This document shows positions 17,118 through 60,345 of a stretch of DNA of 64,000 bases, piece by piece. A model generated the notes under the pieces. That model was not told the origin of the DNA, did no database searches, and saw nothing but the letters and a program-made list of their open reading frames with translations. The position numbers were made by a program, and so were the translations under genes. This DNA is from Diphasiastrum complanatum (lineage: Eukaryota > Streptophyta > Lycopodiopsida > Lycopodiales > Lycopodiaceae): positions 43,046,368 to 43,110,367 of the forward strand of contig CM055106.1 of assembly GCA_029204225.1 (NCBI GenBank), in the 5' to 3' direction. The stretch's first letter is position 1; each line of letters begins with the position of its first letter.

Positions 17118-17158
<41 letters not shown>

Positions 17159-20100
17159 GGTCCGGGCCGTTTTGCCCAAGGCCATGTCCGCATCTATTTT
17201 TTTTTTTTTAATTTTTTTTGAAAAAAATAAAAGAAAATAGACGCGTCCGAGGGTCCAGACGCCCTCGGACGCACGCGTCCGCGGGTCCGGATGCAAATTC
17301 TTTTTTAGAAAAAAAATTTTAAAAAATTATTAAAAAAAAAATCGGACTTATAAAAAAAAATTTAAAAAAATTGCATCCGGACCCCCGGACACGTTCGTCC
17401 GTACCCCGGACACGTGCGTGCGGGGGGGTCCAACCCCTGGACGCATCTATTTTTTTTTTTCAAAACAAAAAAATTCAAAAAATAAATAAGAAAAACCCGG
17501 GCAAAACGGCCCGGACCCTCATGTCTGATATATATATATATAATTTATAGGTCCCGCGGTACTGGGTACCACGTATCCCGGTACCGCGGGACCATACTGG
17601 TATCGCGGCACCATATTGGTACCGCGGTACCACAATATAAAATATTATTTAATATTTAATTTTTTTTTTTTAAAAAATCTTACCTAAACCTACCCGCCCC
17701 CCTCGCATTTCATCAGAAATTTTTTTGCGCCCTCCTCCGCCCTGCCATCGCTACTGTTTCCGCCTGCCTGCCTTCGATTCCTTGCGTCGCCCTTCGCCCA
17801 CGCAACGCCCTGCCTTGCATCTGAATTGCTTCGCCCTGCCTTCGCCCATTTTCAGCATCTCTCCAACAGTGAACCCTGCTGTTTTTTTTCCAGCAATCCA
17901 TCCTTCCAGCTTTAGCTTCATCTGCATTTTTACCCTAGTTTTCTCCATCGCAATGGTGCAATCCGACCTTTTCGGTCTGTGGGACGAGGTAGACATTGTC
18001 AGGCGGGTTGCCGACAAGAGCAACAAGACCGGTCAGAAGATCGTGCGTTGCCGATACTGCCTCGTCGAATTTGTTGCGTCCCTCACTCGCCTTAAAGGCC
18101 ACCTGCTCGGTGCACGCGCCAAAAATGGTGGCACCTTAAATGCTGCCCCTTGTGGCAGCATGTCCGTCCCCAACAGGCAGCGACTACTGGACACCTACGG
18201 GCCATGTCTTGTGGCGAGGAAGAACACCATTTCGGAGGGCGTTCTCCGGTTTTGCACTGCTCCTTATGTGGCTGACCCAGAGTTGCTGCCTGCTTGGCTG
18301 GCACGCACGAGGAGAGGGAGTGCATCCTCGTCCCGTCCCATTGCCCCTCATCCCCCTCAGACAGTTCCGCCACACGCACCCCCATCTGCACCCATTCCGG
18401 TGGATTCCGTCCCATCACATCCGCCAGTTGCCACTGCGGTTCCACCACCACGTCCTGTTGCTCGCACGCCCCCAGTTTACGATTTTCTCATGGATTCTCC
18501 GCCACCCGAACAGGCCCAGGATGCTACTGACGAGGCCTTCGAGGATGTGGATGAGATCCCTTCTTCTTTCCCTTCCCATCCGGATGATCTCCCTAGCCAG
18601 CAGTTTTCGTATCACATGCCAGATCTTGCCCCTCCACCAGTGCACCCCACTTATGCTGCTGCACCCATCTCTGCCAGTGCATCCCACTCTCCCCATTCCA
18701 CGTCTACAGCCAATGCATCTTATTTTCAACTAATTTCGATTGAAGTGAATGATAGCTTCACATAAATGCACCTACATAATGAGCACAGCAATTACCCCTA
18801 CACCCCAAACGGCATTTCACAAACACATGTATTACATTTGCATTTAAAAAAATACAGAGATTGCATTTCACATGACCAGGCTCACGTTGTACAAAAAACA
18901 ACTATATATTCATTCTATCGTTGTATCAAGGTAACATTACATATCTCGTCCTATTTTTAAGCAGCTATCTAGTTATTTGTTGCACCCTAAACTGCCGAAA
19001 ATTACATAGTAGCAGTCCGCCACATACGGCTGGACCTTATCAAATTTAAAAATGCCTACTAATCCTCCACCGACTCCTCGCCCTCGTCAGGTGCATTGTT
19101 CTATCGCTCTCGCTCTGCCTCTGGTTAGCCCGACGTCTGGCAGCCCTTTCCCTGATCATGATGAGTTGCCGCCGTGTGAAGTTCATTCCGATCTGCTCAT
19201 CCAAATCCAACTCGACAGCGGGGGCAGGGGCCACAACGGGGGCGGGGATCTGCAGCTCTGGGTGTCTCTCCCGAGTCTGTCGCAGCATCTCTGCAATGTC
19301 TGCCTCTTGCTTCCGATGTCTTTCGTTGTGCCTTCGGATATCTTCCTCGAGCTTCCTCCTGGCTTCTCCCTCGGGCTTCGGTGGTATGCGCTCTGCCATC
19401 TCGATCGACCTTCTCCTCACAACACCTTGCTCCTCAAACACCCTCTCACAGCACCCTGGCTCTCAAACACCCTCTCACAACGTGTCACCGACTCTCGCTT
19501 GCTCTCAAATATGGACGCGTCCGACCCCGCGTCCAAGAGTCGGACGCGTCCGGGTTCGGACACGGGACGCGGATGCGGAATGCCCGCGTCCGGCCCGGAC
19601 CCTCATGTCTGATATGTATATATATAATAGTTGCATAGAAACGCGTTTCTGGAGCAAAACATTTCTAGAAACTCGTTTTTTGATTTAGAATCTTTGAAAA
19701 AAAAAACAGATATTAAAAAATCAATAGGGATTGATAGAATCCAATAGGAATTGATGCACCTAAACTGGACCACGCTGTACTTGAAAAACCTACACTGCCC
19801 TTAATTAATGCTTTAATTTAATACATATTGTCCACAAAAAAAAAAATTTAAAATCTTTGAGAAACGTTGTCCATAGGTCCCGCGGTACTGGGTATCGCGG
19901 AGCCCAGTACCGCGGGACCGTACTGGTACCGCGGTACCATGTTGGTACCGCGGTACCACAATATAATATATTATTTAAATATTTAATATTTTTTAAAAAA
20001 ATTTTTACCTAAACCTACCCGCCCCCCTCGCATTTCATCTCAAATTTTTTTGCACCCTCCTCCGCCCTGCCATCGCTGTTGTTTTTGCCTACCTGCCTTC

Positions 20101-22462
20101 TGATTCCTTGCGTCGCCCTTCGCCCACGTAACGCCTTGCCTTGCATCTGACTTGCTTCGCCCTGCCTTCGCCCATTTTCAGCGTCTCTCCAATAGTGAAC
20201 CCTGCTGTTTTTTTTCCAGCAATCCATCCCTCATTTCATCTGCAATGGTGCAATCCGACCTTTCCGGTCTGTGAGACGAGGTAGACATTGTCAGGCGGGT
20301 TGCCGACAAGGCCAACAAGACCAGTCAGAAGATCGTGCGCTACCGATACTGTCTCGTCGAGTTTGCTGCATCCCTCACTCGCCTTAAAGGCCATCTGCTC
20401 GGTGCACGCACCAAAAATGGTGCCACCTTGAATGCTGCCCCTTGTGGCAGCATGACCGTCCCCGACAGGCAGCGACTACTGGACACCTACGGGCCGCGGC
20501 TCGTGGCAGAGGAGAACACCATTTCGAAGGGCATTCTCCGATTTTGCACCGCTCCTTATGTGGCTGACCCAGAGTTGCTACTTGCTTGGCTGGCACGCAC
20601 GAGGAGAGGGAGTGCATCCTCCTCCAGTCCCTTTCCCCCTCATCCCCCTCAGACAGTTCTGCCTCACGCAGGTGCTGCTGGTTTGGCTTGCTTGGGGGCT
20701 GATGCAGAGGCAGATTGGGATGATGCTAGTGACGAGTCCTCCTCTTCTGATACACAGCCCATGCCAGCTCCAAACAGGCACAGATATCGGCTGCGAGAGT
20801 CAGCTCGGGGCCCTGAGTTGTCTCCAGAGCATTCGTCTGAGTCAGAGCCAGAGCATTGATTGTGGCTCTGTTGTTTTATTTTTAGCAATTTCACATCATG
20901 TTCCATGTTTGGCGACCAGATGGTCGAACACTGTATTCAGACCATTTTCCATATTATATTCAGTGTTGGACGTATTCTATTCACTGCACAATTTGTATTT
21001 GTCAACTTGTAATTGTGATGTTGTACTTGCAGTTTTACTTCAAATGGTGTGTGCGTGTTTTCAATTAGTTTTCACTACAGAGATTTAGAGCATATGCAGA
21101 AGACAGAAATACAACCCCCCTGATAGCATTTCATAAACACATACATCAGATTGCAATACACAAGGCACGCATTGCACAAAAAACACACCGTACATTAATT
21201 CATCAGATGTATCAAAATAACAATACGTATTCCCTCCACATACGGCTGGGGCTGTTTTTTACACTATGCTAGACACTAAATGTTGCGTCATCTACTGATG
21301 AACATTACATAACAACAGTCAGCCACATACGACTAGACCCCATCTGTGCTAAACATTCCTATGGATCCTCCACTGACTTCTCGCCCTCGTCAGGAGCATT
21401 GTTATGTCGCTCTCGCTCTGCCTCCCGGTTACCCCGAGTTGCCTCCTGGCCAGCCCGACGGCGGGCAGCCCTTTCCCTGACCATGATGAGCTGCCGTCGT
21501 GTGAAGTTCGTTCCGATCTGCTCATCCAAATCCAGCTCGACAGCGGGAGCAGGGGCCACAGCGGGGGCGGGGATCTGTAGCTCTGGGTGTCTCTCCCGAG
21601 TTTGTCGCAGCATCTCTGCAATGTCTGCCTCTTGCTTTTGATGCCTTTCGTTGTGCCTTCGAACATCTTCCTCGAGCTTCCTCCTGGCTTTGCCCTCAGG
21701 CCTTGGTGGTATGCGCTCTGCCATCTCACGACACCCTGTTTCTCGAACTGGCTCTCACTGGCTCTCACAATGCCTCTCACAATAACTCTCACAATGCCTC
21801 TCACAGCCTCTCTCTCACAGCCTCTTACTGGCTCTCACAGCCTAGCGAGTGCCTATTTAACCCCACAGCCTGTTCCTGTTCCCCCATGTGCAGTTGTTGA
21901 TGATCCCTCCATGTGCCCTTGTGCCTGTCCCCATTAATTGTGATGTGCTAATGTACCTGCTCCATGTACCTATACCACATGCTGCACTCCGATTGGGTCC
22001 GTGGTCTGCTCCCCCACAGTGCCCATGTGACGGTGTACCTGTCCGGATTTGTCCCATGTGCCTTTGTACCTGCCCCCATGTGATGCTCCCCCCCTGTGTT
22101 GGTCTCCCATTGGACCCATGGTCTGCTCACCCACAGTGCCCATGTGCTTCTGTACTTGCCCCCATGTGATGCTACCCCCCTGTGTTGGTCTCCCATTGGC
22201 CCCTCGGTCTGCTCACCCGCAGTGCCCATGTGCCACTACACCAGTCCCCTGCATCGTGTACTGTACCCTCTTTTTTTACACCCAGAACCCCTTTTTTTTA
22301 CTTTTTTTTGTCCTTTTTTGGTAGTTAATATGCAAAAAAAATTATTAAAAAAATTTTAAAAAATAAAGATTAAAAATGGTACCGCCCTGGTACCGCGGGT
22401 CTGAGGGCGGTACCGTACCGGCAGTATCACTAATATGGTACCAGCGGTACCACGGGGTACTA

Positions 22463-22535
<73 letters not shown>

Positions 22536-25121
22536 CAATATGGGGTGTCCCATGGAAATTGGTTCACTTAACAACCCAAAACTGGACCGCATTGTTCCTG
22601 AAACTCCTAGGTTTACCCCTCTTGCGTATTCTTATATATAGGTGAGAATCAACTCATTTTTGAAGAAGTTCGTACATATTGTATGGTCAATGCACTATCA
22701 ACAGCATGCATGATACGTCAATGGATCAGTAGATTATCAAGACATTTTTAATAACATACAGAAGATCCAAAACTGCACAAAAAAAACTCAAGAGAGTAAC
22801 ATATGGAGGTATAACTTTTTATCACGTTACCTGGGATTGTAGAAAATGCTAAACATTGTCTTTGTTGAAACGGCATGTGCTGCAGCAGCAAGGACACCCA
22901 GATGCATTGAATGACTTGAAAGTAGAGAAGATGATGTCACACTACTTTGCTGACGAATAGAGCGCCTTACTCCCAGTCTCAACTCTCCATTTTCTCCCCT
23001 AAGCCCATCAAACCAGAAAATATAGTCACTTGAGCAATTCAAACAGTGTTCATAGGCCAGTCTACTACAGCAATGACCAAGGTAAGCTTTTCAAACAAAT
23101 ATTGAATGGAATTTTGTGACTAGTTGACAATGTGTTCAGCACATCTGGTTGTGTATTCTGATGCAAGCATAAGATGTTCCTTTTGACAAATCTGAAAGCC
23201 ATAAAGTTGTCAGCCCAGCAACTGGTGGCTGAAAAATAGGTATTAACCAACAGTATTCGGCAGATGCCTTAGCTAATGATAGAAGCCCACTCTAACAATA
23301 CAGTTGAAGCACAAAGTCTTTTCCAATCACAGATGTCTTTGATTTGAAGGCGAATAAAACAGGCCAACCTATTAAAAAAACTTACTGCTTGCTTATTAAG
23401 TGCTTTGCTTTCAGATTGGTGAAAGTTTAAGCCAAAACTAGGAATAAACCTTACCTCAAAAAGATAACTGCATCGCCAGCTACCAATCTCTTTTGGCTCA
23501 CAAATACACTCCATCCAGTTGTGAGCAAATGCCTTTTGGGGTGGCCTATGGATTCAGAGCAAAGTACATTAGCTAGCACCACCTATGTAGTTACTGAACT
23601 TCTTTTTCAGGGTCAACTGAATCCATCAAACCTTACCAAAAACTTATATAGAAGTTTCCAGTACAAAAATACACTATTCTGTACTGATTCTAGGCAGCGT
23701 TGTTTGGTATTTGATGCTACACTGGTATTGATTGATATGCTAAAATAAGTGCTCCACTGCAATTCAAAGTGAGAATTCAAAACAAATCATACTATACCAC
23801 GATATATGTGACGGAACTTCCATTCTACACCATGCAAGTCCTTAGCAATAAGATCTTGAGTTGGGGGAGATTGTTGAAAATCCTGCCACAAACCCCACAA
23901 CCTTCAGTAAATTATTATATTTCTGCAATAAGATAAGCAAAAACCAATGCAGCCATACATCAACCAAATATGTGAAATCAACGGCATAGAACTAGCTTGC
24001 ACCACAGTTAACTTTGAAGTTCAAGCTGATGGTTGAGTAAGAGGCTCATAGTGTGCATCCAGAAAGAGATAAGACACTTGCCAGAGGGGGAAGACATTCC
24101 TCGGCAGCTCTTCTTGGAACAGAGAAGCCTCCATGTGTGCTTGTATCAGAGGCAGTAAGGGGTTTGATAAACATGTGTAAATTATGCTTGGGACATGAAG
24201 GAATCTCTTCATCAGCATCTCCCAAAAGATCAATTTGCTGGTAGACAGAGCAGAGAGTCAGCAACTTGCTTAAAATGGCCAAAATGAAAAGATTCTCAAG
24301 TCAAAAAGATCAAGTGCTGCTACTTGATAGTTCTCCCAGACGGAAAGTGTTTTTTGCTAAAACCAAGGATTGGAAATATCTTATATGAATCAGAACAACC
24401 TCAGTTTCAGGCACCAACGTCATTTGTGCGTAGACCTCATCAGTTTCTCGTTCAGCCTGCCAGTGAAGGGAGCAATTAACATCACGAGTGAAACAGAGCC
24501 CATCCGAATAAACTGAACTGAAAAGATTCTGTAATAGAATCGCCCTTCAGTGCTTTCACTTACACTCAACGTCATGTTAAGAACACGACAAAGGATTTGA
24601 GAAGGGAGATTGTAATGAGGCATTTGCATGTCTACTCCTTGATTTGTACATGCTGCAACCTGCATGGGACAACAAATAGCAGTACATGCCACAAATTTTA
24701 CATACAGAGTGCAACATTATTTGCAGATATCCAAAAAGAAATAACCTCACAAAATCTACACCATTGCCAGCCATTCCATTATCAACAAAAACTGAGAATC
24801 ATTTAACATAAGGTGATGATGATCTGATTCTCTTTTGATAGTGATTAATAACTATGAGTGTGTATCGATGCACATGTGATATATCATAAGCAAATTCAAC
24901 AGAAAGTGCATTGTACATGAGCAGAAAAGATGGGAACAATACTTGATTAGCATTTGATGAGACTTAAATCGGAAGGGCCCAATGAAGAGATGGCCGGAGG
25001 TGTCCTCAATCACTTGTACATAGTCATAGTCAGCCACGATATTTATAAGGTTTTAGTTAAAACAAGACCTTTACTATCGGATAAACTGAAGTGCATGTGT
25101 CCATCAATGGAATTTCGCTGA

Positions 25122-55583: not shown

Positions 55584-57037
55584 TCATGTGACTAACAAAA
55601 AATATTGACAAAATGTACAATATTTTACATGGCTAGTAGGCAATTTTTTACACTCCTCCTCAAATCTAGCCTTGAAAACCACAAAACTTTGATCAATCAC
55701 TCCAATTGAAGATCTAAGTTTGACAAATGAATCTTTAGGTAAAGATTTAGTAAACAAATCAGCCAAGCAACTCGATGATGACACATGTTGGATCTTGATC
55801 TCTTTGGCTTGCACTTTCTCCCTCACAAAATGATGAGCAATCTCGATGTGTTTGCTCCTTGCATGGAATGTAGGATTAGTTGCAAGTGATTGGGCTAATT
55901 GGTTGTCACAATAGATGATAGGGATCTCCTTCTCCATGACATGAAGCTCCACCAATAGCCTTTTGAGCCACAAGACCTCCTTGCATGTTGATGTCAAGGC
56001 CTTGTATTCGGATTCTGTGGAAGATAAGGAGATGGTATCTTGCTTTATGGAAAGCCATGATACTACTCCATCACATAGAAAGGTGTCAATAGCACTTGTT
56101 GACTTCCTATCCAATTTGTCACCTACAAAATATGAGTTATTGTAGGCTCTTAAGCCAAGATTAGTCCCTCTATACAATATGCCAAAATTCTTAGTAGATG
56201 AAATGTATCTAAGAACTCTTTTGGCCATCTATTAATGTGAAACTAAAAGACTTTGCATGAATTGGCTTAACTATCAGGTCTAGCTATAGTCAAATAAATC
56301 AAGGAGCCTATAAGCCTTCTATATAATGTGATGTCCTCAAAGAATGCTTCATCACCATCAATAGATGCTTTTACATGTTGCTCCATTGGAGTCTCAATGC
56401 CTTTACAATTCTTCATTCCAAATCTATCTAGGACGGATGTAGCATACTTAGATTGACAAATAAAGCTAAAATCACATCCTCTAGTAGCTTCTATTCCTAG
56501 AATGAAGCTTAATAGGTCGAAATCTACCATTTTAAACTCTTTTGCCAAAGCAATTTTTACATCTCTAATTCCATCTAGATCATTACCACTCAAGATAATG
56601 TCATCTATATATAAAACAAGAATAATGATCTTGTTATCATGAAACCTTATGTACAATGATGGATCATATGCACTCATTACAAAATTGATGGAAATGAGAA
56701 AAGAGTACCATGCTCTAGGTGCTTGCTTGAGCCCATAAAGGCTCTTCTTCAAGAAACACACATTTCCTTCATGATTTGCCTTGATGAAGCCCTCGGATCG
56801 CCTCATGTAGATCTCTTCCTCTAAATAACCATTCAGGAATGCATTTGTGAAATCAAGTTGGAATAGCTCCCAATTGAAGGTTGTAACAAGACTAATGATC
56901 AACCTGATAGTAAAAAGCTTAGCCACAAGAGCAAAAGTGTCATTATAATCAATGCCTTTGGTTTGTAAAAAAACTTTTGGCGCATCCGACAAAGAATTTG
57001 AATTGCATCCGATAGAGCATTCTCCTCTCAGTTGCAT
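55584..57037 (-). pseudogene. Ty1/copia reverse transcriptase and RNase H, largely open (copia D)
   Basis: The minus-strand reverse transcriptase frame begins within DYNDTFALVAKLFTIRLIIS and runs [51 protein letters not shown] (catalytic box YIDD) and YRRLIGSLIYLTIARPD, then a stop at about 56267. RNase H and the tail follow (55584-56228): MAKRVLRYISSTKNFGILY, SLSSTESEYKALTSTCKEVL, YCDNQLAQSLATNPTFHARS and FTKSLPKDSFVKLRS. These frames are the least damaged retroelement coding in the window. It is truncated at about 56978, where a TGCATCCG-rich block takes over. Confidence 0.9.
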
Positions 57038-57600: not shown

Positions 57601-59465
57601 CCTTCCTAGTTCCATCCCACGATTTTGCAATTCTTTTTCAATTTTTTGTAATTTTTCATCACTTTTTTGTAAATATTTTCGTCAATTTCGCGAAATTTTT
57701 TTTTGTAATTTTTGTCGCTTTTTTTTTTTTTTGTTGCGAATTTCTTTGTCATTTCTTGTTTATTTTCCAAGACTTTTTTTTTTTGTCATTTTTCATCATT
57801 TCCGCAAATTTTTTCGTTTTTCAGGAATTCATTATTTTCAAAAAAATTTTAATTTTCATTTTTGGATATTTTTTAATTTTTTAAGTTTTATTTTTTTTGC
57901 ATTTTTTCGGGAATTTTTCACGTTTTGTTTGGATTTTTTACGAATTCTTTTCGTGTCCTTTCAGGATTTTTCGAGATATTTCACAAATTTTTCCAAATTC
58001 TTGAGTCTTGCCCAATGAGTTTTTCGAGAATTTTCGTGGATTTTCGAGCTTTGTTCAAATTTTTTCGAGTTTTTCTTATTTCGTATTTTTTTCGAGATTT
58101 TTAAAGATTTTCCAATTGCTTCTCGTTTTTCTTGTTTCGTAGTTTTTTTCTTGTTGTTTCACATTTTTCTGAGTTTTTTTTTTTTTTTTTGCTTTTTTCT
58201 AAATTAGTTTTTCGTGGATTTTCGAGTTTTTTCGAATTTTATGAGATTTTTTTAATTTTTCCCAATGAGTTTTTTCGGGGATTTTCGAACATTGTTCAAG
58301 TTCTTTCGAGTTTTCGAGTATTTCCACGTTTTTTTTGTTTCGCGTTTTTCTTGTTTTGCATTTTTCTTGGAGTTGTTTTAAGTTGTTGTTTTTTGTGTAT
58401 TTTCGAGTTTTTCGAGAATTTTCGTGTTTTTTCGAATGATTTTTTCGAAAAAAATTTCGAACATTGTCAAGTTTTATTCTGAATTTTTTCGAGTTTCAAT
58501 GTTCGAGAATTTTTAGGTTTAAGTTTTTTAGGTTTTTATTTCGTCGTTTTTTTCGTTTCGCAGTTTTTCGAGATTTTTCGAGTTGTTTCAAGGTATTTTG
58601 CGATTTTTCGAGTTGTTTCGAGGTTTTACGAGTTTCTTCAAGGTTTTTCGTGTTTTTTTCTGTTTTTTCTCGCGTTTTCTCGGGTTCTTTTGCGTTCTTT
58701 CGAGTATTTTTCACGTTTTTTGGAACATTTTTCGCCTTTGTTTTTTTTTTTTGGTATTTTTTCAAGTTCTTTTTGCGTTTAGGATTTTTTAATTTTTCGG
58801 GTCTTTTTGAGAAATTTTCACGTTTTTTTTTAGAATTTTCGATTTTAGGGCGGATTTTTTTAAGTCTTTTTTAGGGGTTTTAGGGATTTTTGTTTCGCGT
58901 TTTTTCGGGAATTTTTGTGAATTTTTTTTTCAGTTTTTCAATATCTTTTCAAGTCTTTTTCGGGTTCTTTTCACGTCCTTTTGGAAAATTTTCGTATTTT
59001 TTTAGGAATTTTTCGAGTTTTTTGGGAAATTTTTGTATTTTTTTGGGGTTTTTTTTAAAGTCTTTTTTGGGTTTTTTCAGGTACTTTTCTCTTTCTTTCG
59101 AGAAATTTACGTGTTTTTCCAAGAATTCTTCGGGATTTTTCAATAATTTTCGAGTTTTTTTCAGGTCTTTTTTGGGTTTTTTTCGCAAATTTTCGCATTT
59201 TTTCAAGTTTTTTTGTTTATGTTTCTTCGAGTTTTTTTTTGTGAATTTTGCGTTTTGATTTTCGAGGATTTTCGAGTTTTCGTTTTAGAATTTAGGGTTT
59301 TCAATCCTAGATTTTTTCGACCCTTGATTTTTTCGATATCTCATTTTTTCGAGTTCTTATTTTTTCCAGACGATGTTTTTTTTTTTTGCGTCCTTAATTT
59401 TTCGATCTCTTATTTTTCGAGTTTTATTTTTTGACTTTGTTTTTCGGTCCATTATTTTTCGACCC
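57460..59465. repeat. T-rich low-complexity block with TTTTCGAG words
   Basis: About 2 kb is made almost only of T runs with CGAG, CGTG, CGGG and similar insertions (TTTTTCGAGTTTTTTCG). The plus strand is strongly T-rich and nearly free of A runs longer than five. Long frames in several phases translate as Phe-rich (plus) or Lys/Glu-rich (minus) text and are composition artefacts. It is bounded by copia D on the left and copia E on the right. Confidence 0.9.
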
Positions 59466-60345
59466 CTTAGATCTGGGAGAAGCCAGGTGTTAATTTGGCT
59501 TGCAGATTGACAAGGACTATGAGGGAGGTAAGTTGTACCTTCATCAGTCCAGTTACACTGAGAAATTCCTAGAAGATTTTGGGATGCTGAATTGCATAGG
59601 AGCAAATACTCCAATGCTTGGAGGAACAGTAGTGACGAGCGAAAATTGTTCAAGGATTGAAGAGGAGAGAGAATTGATGCAGTTCACACCATACAGGAAA
59701 CTGATAGAATCACTGATGTACCTTGCAGATAACACACGTCTTGACATTGCTTATGATGTGTTCAGGATGAGCCAATGTTGCACGAATCTAGGCTCGACAC
59801 ATTGGAAGATTGCAAGACAAATTTTACAATTTCTTCAGTTAACAAAAGATTATGGTTTGTGTTATTGTCATGATGCAGGGTTCCAGATGCTTTCCTACAG
59901 TGATACTAGCTGGGCATCTCTCAAGGAAAACTGTAAAAGTGTCTCAAGAGGATTTCCATCGTGTCAAGAGCAACAATTCTCCAAGTCAGCAAGAAACAGA
60001 CCACTGTGGCTTAGTCATCTTGCGAAGCAGAGTACGTTGCAGCAGGAAAGATGGCCAACGAAATAATTTGGCTCAAATAGTTCCTTGACAAACTGGGCGA
60101 AACGAGGAATGAAACTCTGGTTTGCAAATGAACAACACATCTGTAATACATCTGACAAAAGACCCTATATTTCACTCAAGGATGAAATACATTACAATCA
60201 AGTACCACTTGATTAGGGATTTGATTAGGAAGAAAATACTACAGACCACCTTCATTGGAACGAAAGACATGGTTGTTGACAATTTTACAAAGGGCCTTAG
60301 ACAAAGGTCTGTTCGAGAAACAGAATAGCAGTCTTGGAATCGTCA
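59465..60345 (+). pseudogene. Ty1/copia reverse transcriptase end and RNase H (copia E)
   Basis: The sequence starts LDLGEARC, a stop, FGLQIDKDYEGGKLYLHQSS, then TPMLGGTVVTSE, YRKLIESLMYLADNTRLDIAY and SYSDTSWASLKENCKSVSRG. After a frameshift it reads MNNTSVIHLTKDPIFHSRMK and VVDNFTKGLRQRS. It is close in text to copia C (FGLQID/LGLQID, LYLHQSK, HLTKDP). Everything before the catalytic box is missing; the T-rich block abuts the break. Confidence 0.85.

Follow-up and report, generated by a model that had tools for sequence, protein, structure and literature searches.

Does a transposon of the hAT superfamily, whose members are usually treated as one-gene machines, maintain a second gene beside that of its transposase? 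The question is raised by a 64-kb stretch of the 1.74-Gb genome of the plant Diphasiastrum complanatum (G000:C15:43046368-43110367; hereafter, the window), in which two related GC-rich copies lie head to tail inside an intron of an ARF-like gene. According to the original prediction, both copies pair a plus-strand zinc-finger-like frame with a convergent frame for the same small charged protein, which begins with MAERIPP. Both open reading frames (ORFs) are indeed present and the copies are homologous; the two small proteins differ, as had been stated, at eight of their first 93 residues. Copies 1 and 2 both derive by deletion from a single family of plant hAT elements. From sequence comparisons across the genome, we propose that this family has two genes and that the small protein would act as a transposition helper; as the best explanation of the whole, we give this reading a probability of roughly 0.6. 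That the small gene is a real, maintained second gene appears very probable indeed.

With the small protein as the query, at least 150 relatives were scored in the host genome (the best 150 of 3926 candidates), and the seven-residue pattern coding for MAERIPP occurs 1283 times in the genome, against 0 times for the reversed control. Twenty of the best 150 places were taken as 9.9-kb loci; numbers with the letter L denote such stretches of the host genome, A denotes the burst subfamily, and K denotes the window-like subfamily. Full-length relatives, which had been predicted to exist elsewhere, were found: they are bounded by CATAG ends and contain both genes, the transposase having a DUF659 core and a hATC-like region. 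They span 6.2-6.8 kb (for example, L029:864-7090, about 6.2 kb); among the loci, both-ended elements measure 6373 bp (L023) and 6807 bp (L011), and shorter ones 3.7-5.2 kb. In a full-length element, several exon-like frames of the plus strand encode the transposase, and the small gene runs convergently from the right end.

The family belongs to the hAT superfamily, with a DUF659 core, hATC, an 8-bp target duplication and short inverted repeats. The core, which lies between the two halves represented in the window copies, matches Pfam DUF659 (PF04937) with an E-value of 8.2e-41 on the L017 frame. In the hATC-like region, one exon alone (L019) matches Dimer_Tnp_hAT with 18.9 bits (E-value 0.0013), and the region is completed in a later frame of L029 and L011, which holds CERNWSTWALIHTRRRNRL with the CERNWSTW motif. 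We take CERNWS to be the hATC motif, and the dimerisation domain is recognised here from the sub-cut-off match and the motif together, not from the curated cut-off. The C-terminus of the transposase is long and proline-rich and has two motifs (KRPGRPKG and RRGRPRR in L029) resembling what we take to be the AT-hook pattern. As for the N-terminus, the label "BED" is weakly supported: a zinc-finger-like start is present, and the Pfam zf-BED match is weak (E-value 0.17 for the L029 version, below the cut-off). The AlphaFold2 (AF2) model of this region was poor, with a predicted local distance difference test score (pLDDT) of 44. The BED identity is thus likely, but not established.

The terminal inverted repeats are short (CATAG..CTATG) and are accompanied by subterminal GGTACCGCGG-type repeats. 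An 8-bp target duplication, TTTTGTAC, was read at L015, one of eight both-ended elements, outside simple repeats; six of the eight lie between AT repeats, where the duplication is not cleanly readable. A mudrA-type transposase with a 9-11-bp duplication, as in Mutator-like elements, was not found, hAT domains and the 8-bp duplication being present instead; nor was the combination of a Myb-like ORF1 and a 3-bp duplication, as in PIF/Harbinger elements, since the small protein has no Pfam match and the duplication is 8 bp. Of the 1859 exact left ends in the whole genome, 1115 (60%) stand directly after ATATATAT; by our own arithmetic, about 7 in 100,000 would be expected in random DNA with a GC content of 40%, a baseline from which the actual TA-repeat density of the genome may differ.

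Purifying selection on the small gene, which had been put forward as a check, is indicated by comparison of the consensus sequences of subfamilies A (16 copies) and K (21 copies). Two of the 39 copies (window copy 1 and L038, both frameshifted) were omitted, and the K-group copies are those of the window together with loci picked by the best small-gene match, a choice biased towards intactness. In its own frame, the comparison gave 25 synonymous and 19 nonsynonymous differences (Sd and Nd), with a synonymous divergence (dS) of 0.370, a nonsynonymous divergence (dN) of 0.072, and a dN/dS ratio of 0.19, far below 1; the other five frames gave 0.34 (the mirrored antisense frame), 1.16, 1.29, 1.76 and 2.73. 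Third positions account for 25 of the 44 coding changes, and 15 residues are changed, compared with 29.5 in simulation, where none of 10,000 runs was as low. Furthermore, the stop codon is at the same position in 24 of 26 copies. A comparison of L029 with two K elements, made in 150-bp windows, gave 79-99% identity in most windows as far as 4.8 kb and once more close to the right end. In the surroundings of the small gene, nine of the ten flanking comparisons were only 59-75% alike with many gaps, whereas the two windows inside the gene were 82-93% alike and ungapped.

The association of the two genes was also approached from the transposase. A search with 283 residues of the transposase core, in which the best 137 of 14681 candidates were scored, gave 97 cores with the identical score of 625.7, many of them in a 672-amino-acid open frame; these equal scores point to a burst, large and recent, of a hAT element that may be autonomous. 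Thirteen elements or expected 3' parts were picked by the transposase alone, all from the 97 equal-scoring matches with the 672-amino-acid frame. The small gene was at the expected place and in the expected orientation in all 13, and its frame was unbroken in 10 (L032 and L039 have a stop, and L038 is frameshifted). The 3' parts of 10 of 12 were 99.0-99.3% identical to that of L029, with 97.8% for L039 and 94.8% for L031. In a separate test by coordinates, the 10 core matches lying on C1 or within the first 32.78 Mb of C2 were compared with the nearby MAERIPP starts among those listed, and a start was found downstream on the opposite strand in nine, at the same distance in eight; one element is common to the two sets. 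Full-length relatives lacking the small gene, which the original prediction had named as grounds for abandoning it, are therefore not what these sets consist of, although nearly all of their members come from one burst. These results show that the successful lineage carries the small gene; many independent retentions are not implied.

The small gene may also have a promoter of its own. The copies considered were the 41 that begin exactly with MAERIPP and for which 320 bp upstream was available; in 37 of them, the block TGGGG(A/T)TAAATA(A/G)GC lies 102-267 bp upstream of the ATG, and window copy 1 is one of the four that lack it. The survival of this block in an otherwise poorly conserved region suggests that it is a putative TATA box for a separate small-gene transcript. 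The protein itself has 121 residues, for which AF2 predicted two helices, both charged, at residues 12-45 and 66-108 with a proline-rich linker (mean pLDDT 79.5). The second helix is basic and the tail is acidic, and the charged basic stretch is among the most constant parts of the protein. We considered a bZIP-like basic region in this helix (N-x2-AA-x2-NR, which we take to be the bZIP signature) and rejected it on inspection by eye, because the K copies have G or D in place of the first N and acidic residues follow.

Several observations weigh against a two-gene family with a helper protein. Because the 13 transposase-chosen elements and most of the 10 in the coordinate test are near-identical burst members, the presence of the small gene in them largely reflects common descent, and the weight of the argument falls on a single comparison, that of subfamily A with subfamily K. 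No MAERIPP start lies within 6 kb of the core match at C1:7431105, whose open frame is shorter (439 amino acids). The tenth flanking comparison around the small gene did not fall (0.88, 380 columns being gapped). Singletons within the subfamilies are near neutral (27 synonymous and 37 nonsynonymous in the K group), which is expected of dead copies, and the zinc-finger exon of L029, compared with six K copies, is without constraint (synonymous 0-4.8, nonsynonymous 6-9.2); the adjacent DUF659 core does not share this excess of nonsynonymous changes, for which either a different selective pressure on the exon or decay of L029 itself in this part might account. The Dimer_Tnp_hAT score is below the Pfam cut-off of 21.4 bits. 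The small protein had no credible relative in Pfam, NCBIfam or the PDB sequences (best E-values of 0.63 in PDB and 0.023, below the cut-off, in NCBIfam; in one scan, the copy 1 protein was entered without its first two residues), and thus the helper role rests on analogy. Its AF2 model had a predicted template modelling score of 0.31 from an alignment only nine deep, with no globular fold.

The comparison with other hAT elements of the genome belongs to the same side of the balance. In a search of the genome with Pfam DUF659 (the best 150 of 10620 candidates), other hAT sequences scored better, and four other hAT elements were compared, the cores of which are 38-54% identical to that of the two-gene family. 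Since L046, L047 and L048 look alike, the four represent two families. No relative of the small gene was found near any of the four within about 4.3 kb after the core, a reach that would cover the spacing of the two-gene family but not one much longer; L047 is interrupted by a retroelement-like frame. Thus, hAT elements in general do not need the small gene, and the second gene looks, on this thin evidence, specific to the present family.

On the proposed mechanism, the transposase would cut at the CATAG ends and paste the element with an 8-bp duplication, a mode of action established for the superfamily. Its AT-hooks would perhaps steer or tether it to TA tracts. The small protein would work as a helper in the nucleus, where it would bind either the transposase or the GC-rich subterminal repeats and promote transposition, much as mudrB does for MuDR or ORF1 for PIF. 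By analogy, a direct helper comparable to mudrB has about an even chance of being the correct role.

One alternative, which we regard as possible but rather doubtful, is that the small protein is an anti-silencing factor or a regulator of expression, and not a factor of the transposition reaction. VANC proteins and TnpA-type factors are models for such a role. The small gene's own TATA-like block, the high copy number with the recent burst, and the charged basic helix would all suit a regulator, but nothing specific to silencing was observed. Some other role of the protein is a possibility of the same tentative order.

Another, improbable alternative is that the small protein serves specifically in target selection or assembly and has made an ordinary hAT element prefer TA microsatellites, the gene with its upstream block and flanks forming a swappable cassette. 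The idea comes from the synonymous divergence of the small gene, which is several times that of the transposase core: 0.35-0.48 against 0.04-0.08 for DUF659 in the four longest comparisons of the same pairs. Of the remaining core comparisons (six were compared), one of 75 codons gave 0.14, and L012 had no match. From this difference, the 3' block seems to have been swapped between lineages as a cassette. If the idea is true, the hAT superfamily would include an accessory protein for targeting. Elements of A and K also look mosaic-like when L029 is set beside L017 and L011, with a near-identical transposase, a diverged 3' block containing the small gene and its upstream region, and a similar right end.

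It is far less probable that the small frame is a drifting passenger, that is, a captured fragment of a host gene. Plant hAT elements can hold captured fragments, as does grapevine Hatvine-6 (PMC2528002; here and below, published systems are described from the available parts of the cited papers), and the lack of a relative near all four hAT elements of the two other families would fit such an origin. However, the dN/dS ratio of 0.19 and the island of conservation within diverged flanks largely refute drift. Capture of a host gene had been listed in advance as a reason to give up the two-gene interpretation; the gene is now maintained as element DNA, and a capture in the past may nevertheless have given rise to it. 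Slightly weaker still, and very unlikely, is a conserved block of non-coding function (an antisense regulatory RNA or end-binding sites) that is open by chance. GC-rich DNA does yield long chance frames on both strands, and the ratio of the mirrored antisense frame, 0.34, is also lowish, but the concentration of changes at third positions, the lack of gaps inside the ORF and the constant stop position argue for a coding sequence. That the small gene came in with a separate transposon nested in the hAT element, as the side-by-side and overlapping insertions at several loci might suggest, is hardly credible, because the gene lies inside the CATAG ends at the same distance from the core in eight of ten places, and inspection of L029:5950-7130 by eye revealed no further pair of ends around it.

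The copies of the window can be read against this two-gene family as follows.

17546..19506, no strand: hAT copy 1, with the core deleted and its own right end missing; the left end is ATAGGTCCCGCGG.., its first base C replaced by T.
17953..18765, plus strand: transposase remnant of copy 1, identified as an ORF, comprising the N-terminal zinc-finger-like exon and a proline-rich linker, cut by the deletion.
19046..19399, minus strand: small gene of copy 1, identified from the ORF and relatives, with a frameshifted 3' end and its upstream block gone.
19507..19604, no strand: right end (..GGCCCGGACCCTC) of a different element of the miniature inverted-repeat transposable element (MITE) type, identified from a 38-nucleotide repeat shared with 17507-17544 and from the break of homology.
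19872..22464, no strand: hAT copy 2, an internal deletion derivative with both ends present (CATAG..CTATG).
19872..19960, no strand: left end of copy 2, with subterminal GGTACCGCGG-type repeats.
20245..20859, plus strand: transposase remnant of copy 2, the zinc-finger-like exon being joined near 20668 to the transposase C-terminus.
21359..21724, minus strand: small gene of copy 2 (121 amino acids), frame intact.
21851..21865, minus strand: TATA-like block TGGGGTTAAATAGGC upstream of the copy 2 small gene.
21980..22254, no strand: subterminal repeats with an 86-bp unit, between the copy 2 small gene and the right end.
22378..22464, no strand: right end of copy 2, containing subterminal GGTACCGCGG-type repeats; a TA microsatellite comes next.

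The two copies are 87.5% identical over the left part of about 830 columns (the left end and the zinc-finger-like exon) and 78.2% identical over 602 columns of the 3' block that holds the small gene. The homology of copy 1 to its relatives L042 and L043 breaks off at 19506-19507, and its transposase remnant matches the exon of the full-length L029. Both small frames had been described as open, which is correct for copy 2, whereas the frame of copy 1 is shifted beyond about residue 92 by a 22-bp deletion. Similarly, the core had been described as lost from both copies; it is deleted in both, but copy 2 has kept the original C-terminus and stop codon of the transposase (about 20668-20859). The zinc-finger frame of copy 2 has a TGA at codon 10 (20272-20274). 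A target-site duplication was looked for at both window copies, and none was readable. The predicted ARF setting agrees with minus-strand exon motifs on both sides of the copies, which we assigned from motifs presumed to be those of ARF genes: the B3-region exons are at about 24.1-22.8 kb (motifs at 24147, 23813, 23531 and 22844, the last ending in FYNPR), and the following exon is at about 14147-14072. Because these exons flank both copies, the copies sit in an intron of about 8.7 kb.

The same intron holds a complete MITE-type element at 17157-17519, whose inverted ends of 22 bp are perfect (GAGGGTCCGGGCCGTTTTGCCC) and whose subterminal repeats are of the GGACGCG type; it adjoins a TA tract. 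A second right end of this type of element, with the same flank, is present at 19507-19628, on the far side of copy 1. Elsewhere in the window, two long phenylalanine-rich plus-strand frames (136 and 122 amino acids) lie at 58464-59258, where the AT skew is -0.58 at 58-59 kb (a strong T bias), perhaps a decayed simple-sequence region. Frames resembling a Copia-type reverse transcriptase and RNase H, judged by eye, were seen at 55584-57037 and 59500-60066.

Second genes are known from other superfamilies of plant transposons. The mudrA and mudrB genes of MuDR have a convergent layout, and ORF1 of PIF/Harbinger elements is Myb-like. In maize MuDR, as in the two-gene family, an autonomous element has a transposase gene and a second gene by the other end, and mudrB is required for insertional activity (PMC8224964). 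MuDR differs in belonging to the Mutator superfamily and in its transposase, ends and duplication. In PIF/Harbinger-Pong elements, a second ORF (ORF1) is likewise the usual companion of the transposase (PMC2528002), but their duplications are mostly TAA or TTA, and the small protein had no Myb match in the Pfam scan. Among hAT elements, the grapevine Hatvine families have DUF659 and hATC, an 8-bp duplication and many deleted copies (PMC2528002). The two-gene family resembles them in its hAT transposase, its 8-bp duplication and its many deleted copies and, as far as the available part of that paper describes them, differs in its convergent selected gene, its frequent insertion into TA repeats and the AT-hook-like C-terminal extension. 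Among the open-access titles and beginnings of abstracts listed, we found no description of a second gene for hAT elements; this search did not extend to subscription journals or Repbase.

Insertion into TA repeats is known from Mutator-like elements, namely, MuTAnT (PMC4486113), SaTar (PMC5907723), the pineapple Ac-mMITEs (PMC8449440) and carrot elements with TA-microsatellite insertions and arrays (PMC8227079). PMC4486113 also names TAFT and Micron and proposes that several unrelated families acquired the habit. Side-by-side arrays, non-nested in SaTar, are formed by SaTar and the Ac-mMITEs, which the two-gene family resembles in this respect as well as in its TA-repeat insertion. However, MuTAnT, SaTar and Ac-mMITEs have 9-10-bp duplications, whereas the two-gene family has a hAT transposase and an 8-bp duplication. 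Insertion of a hAT element into TA microsatellites was not found reported among the open-access papers listed. In the present genome, family elements stand head to head or head to tail with a short AT repeat between them at L023:2588-2797, L012:6627-6772 and L019:2713-2940, and similar side-by-side placements were seen at C2, C4013 and C1336.

Thus, the hAT superfamily itself, the second genes of MuDR and PIF, and the TA targeting of Mutator-like and some other elements were already known, and what appears to be new is a hAT element with a convergent, selected second gene. If a thriving hAT family maintains such a gene by selection, accessory proteins would be shown to arise in the hAT superfamily as well. 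The many near-identical copies are a natural system in which the function of the accessory protein could be learned. Furthermore, insertion into TA microsatellites makes target choice and side-by-side arrays testable in a superfamily other than that of the Mutator-like elements.

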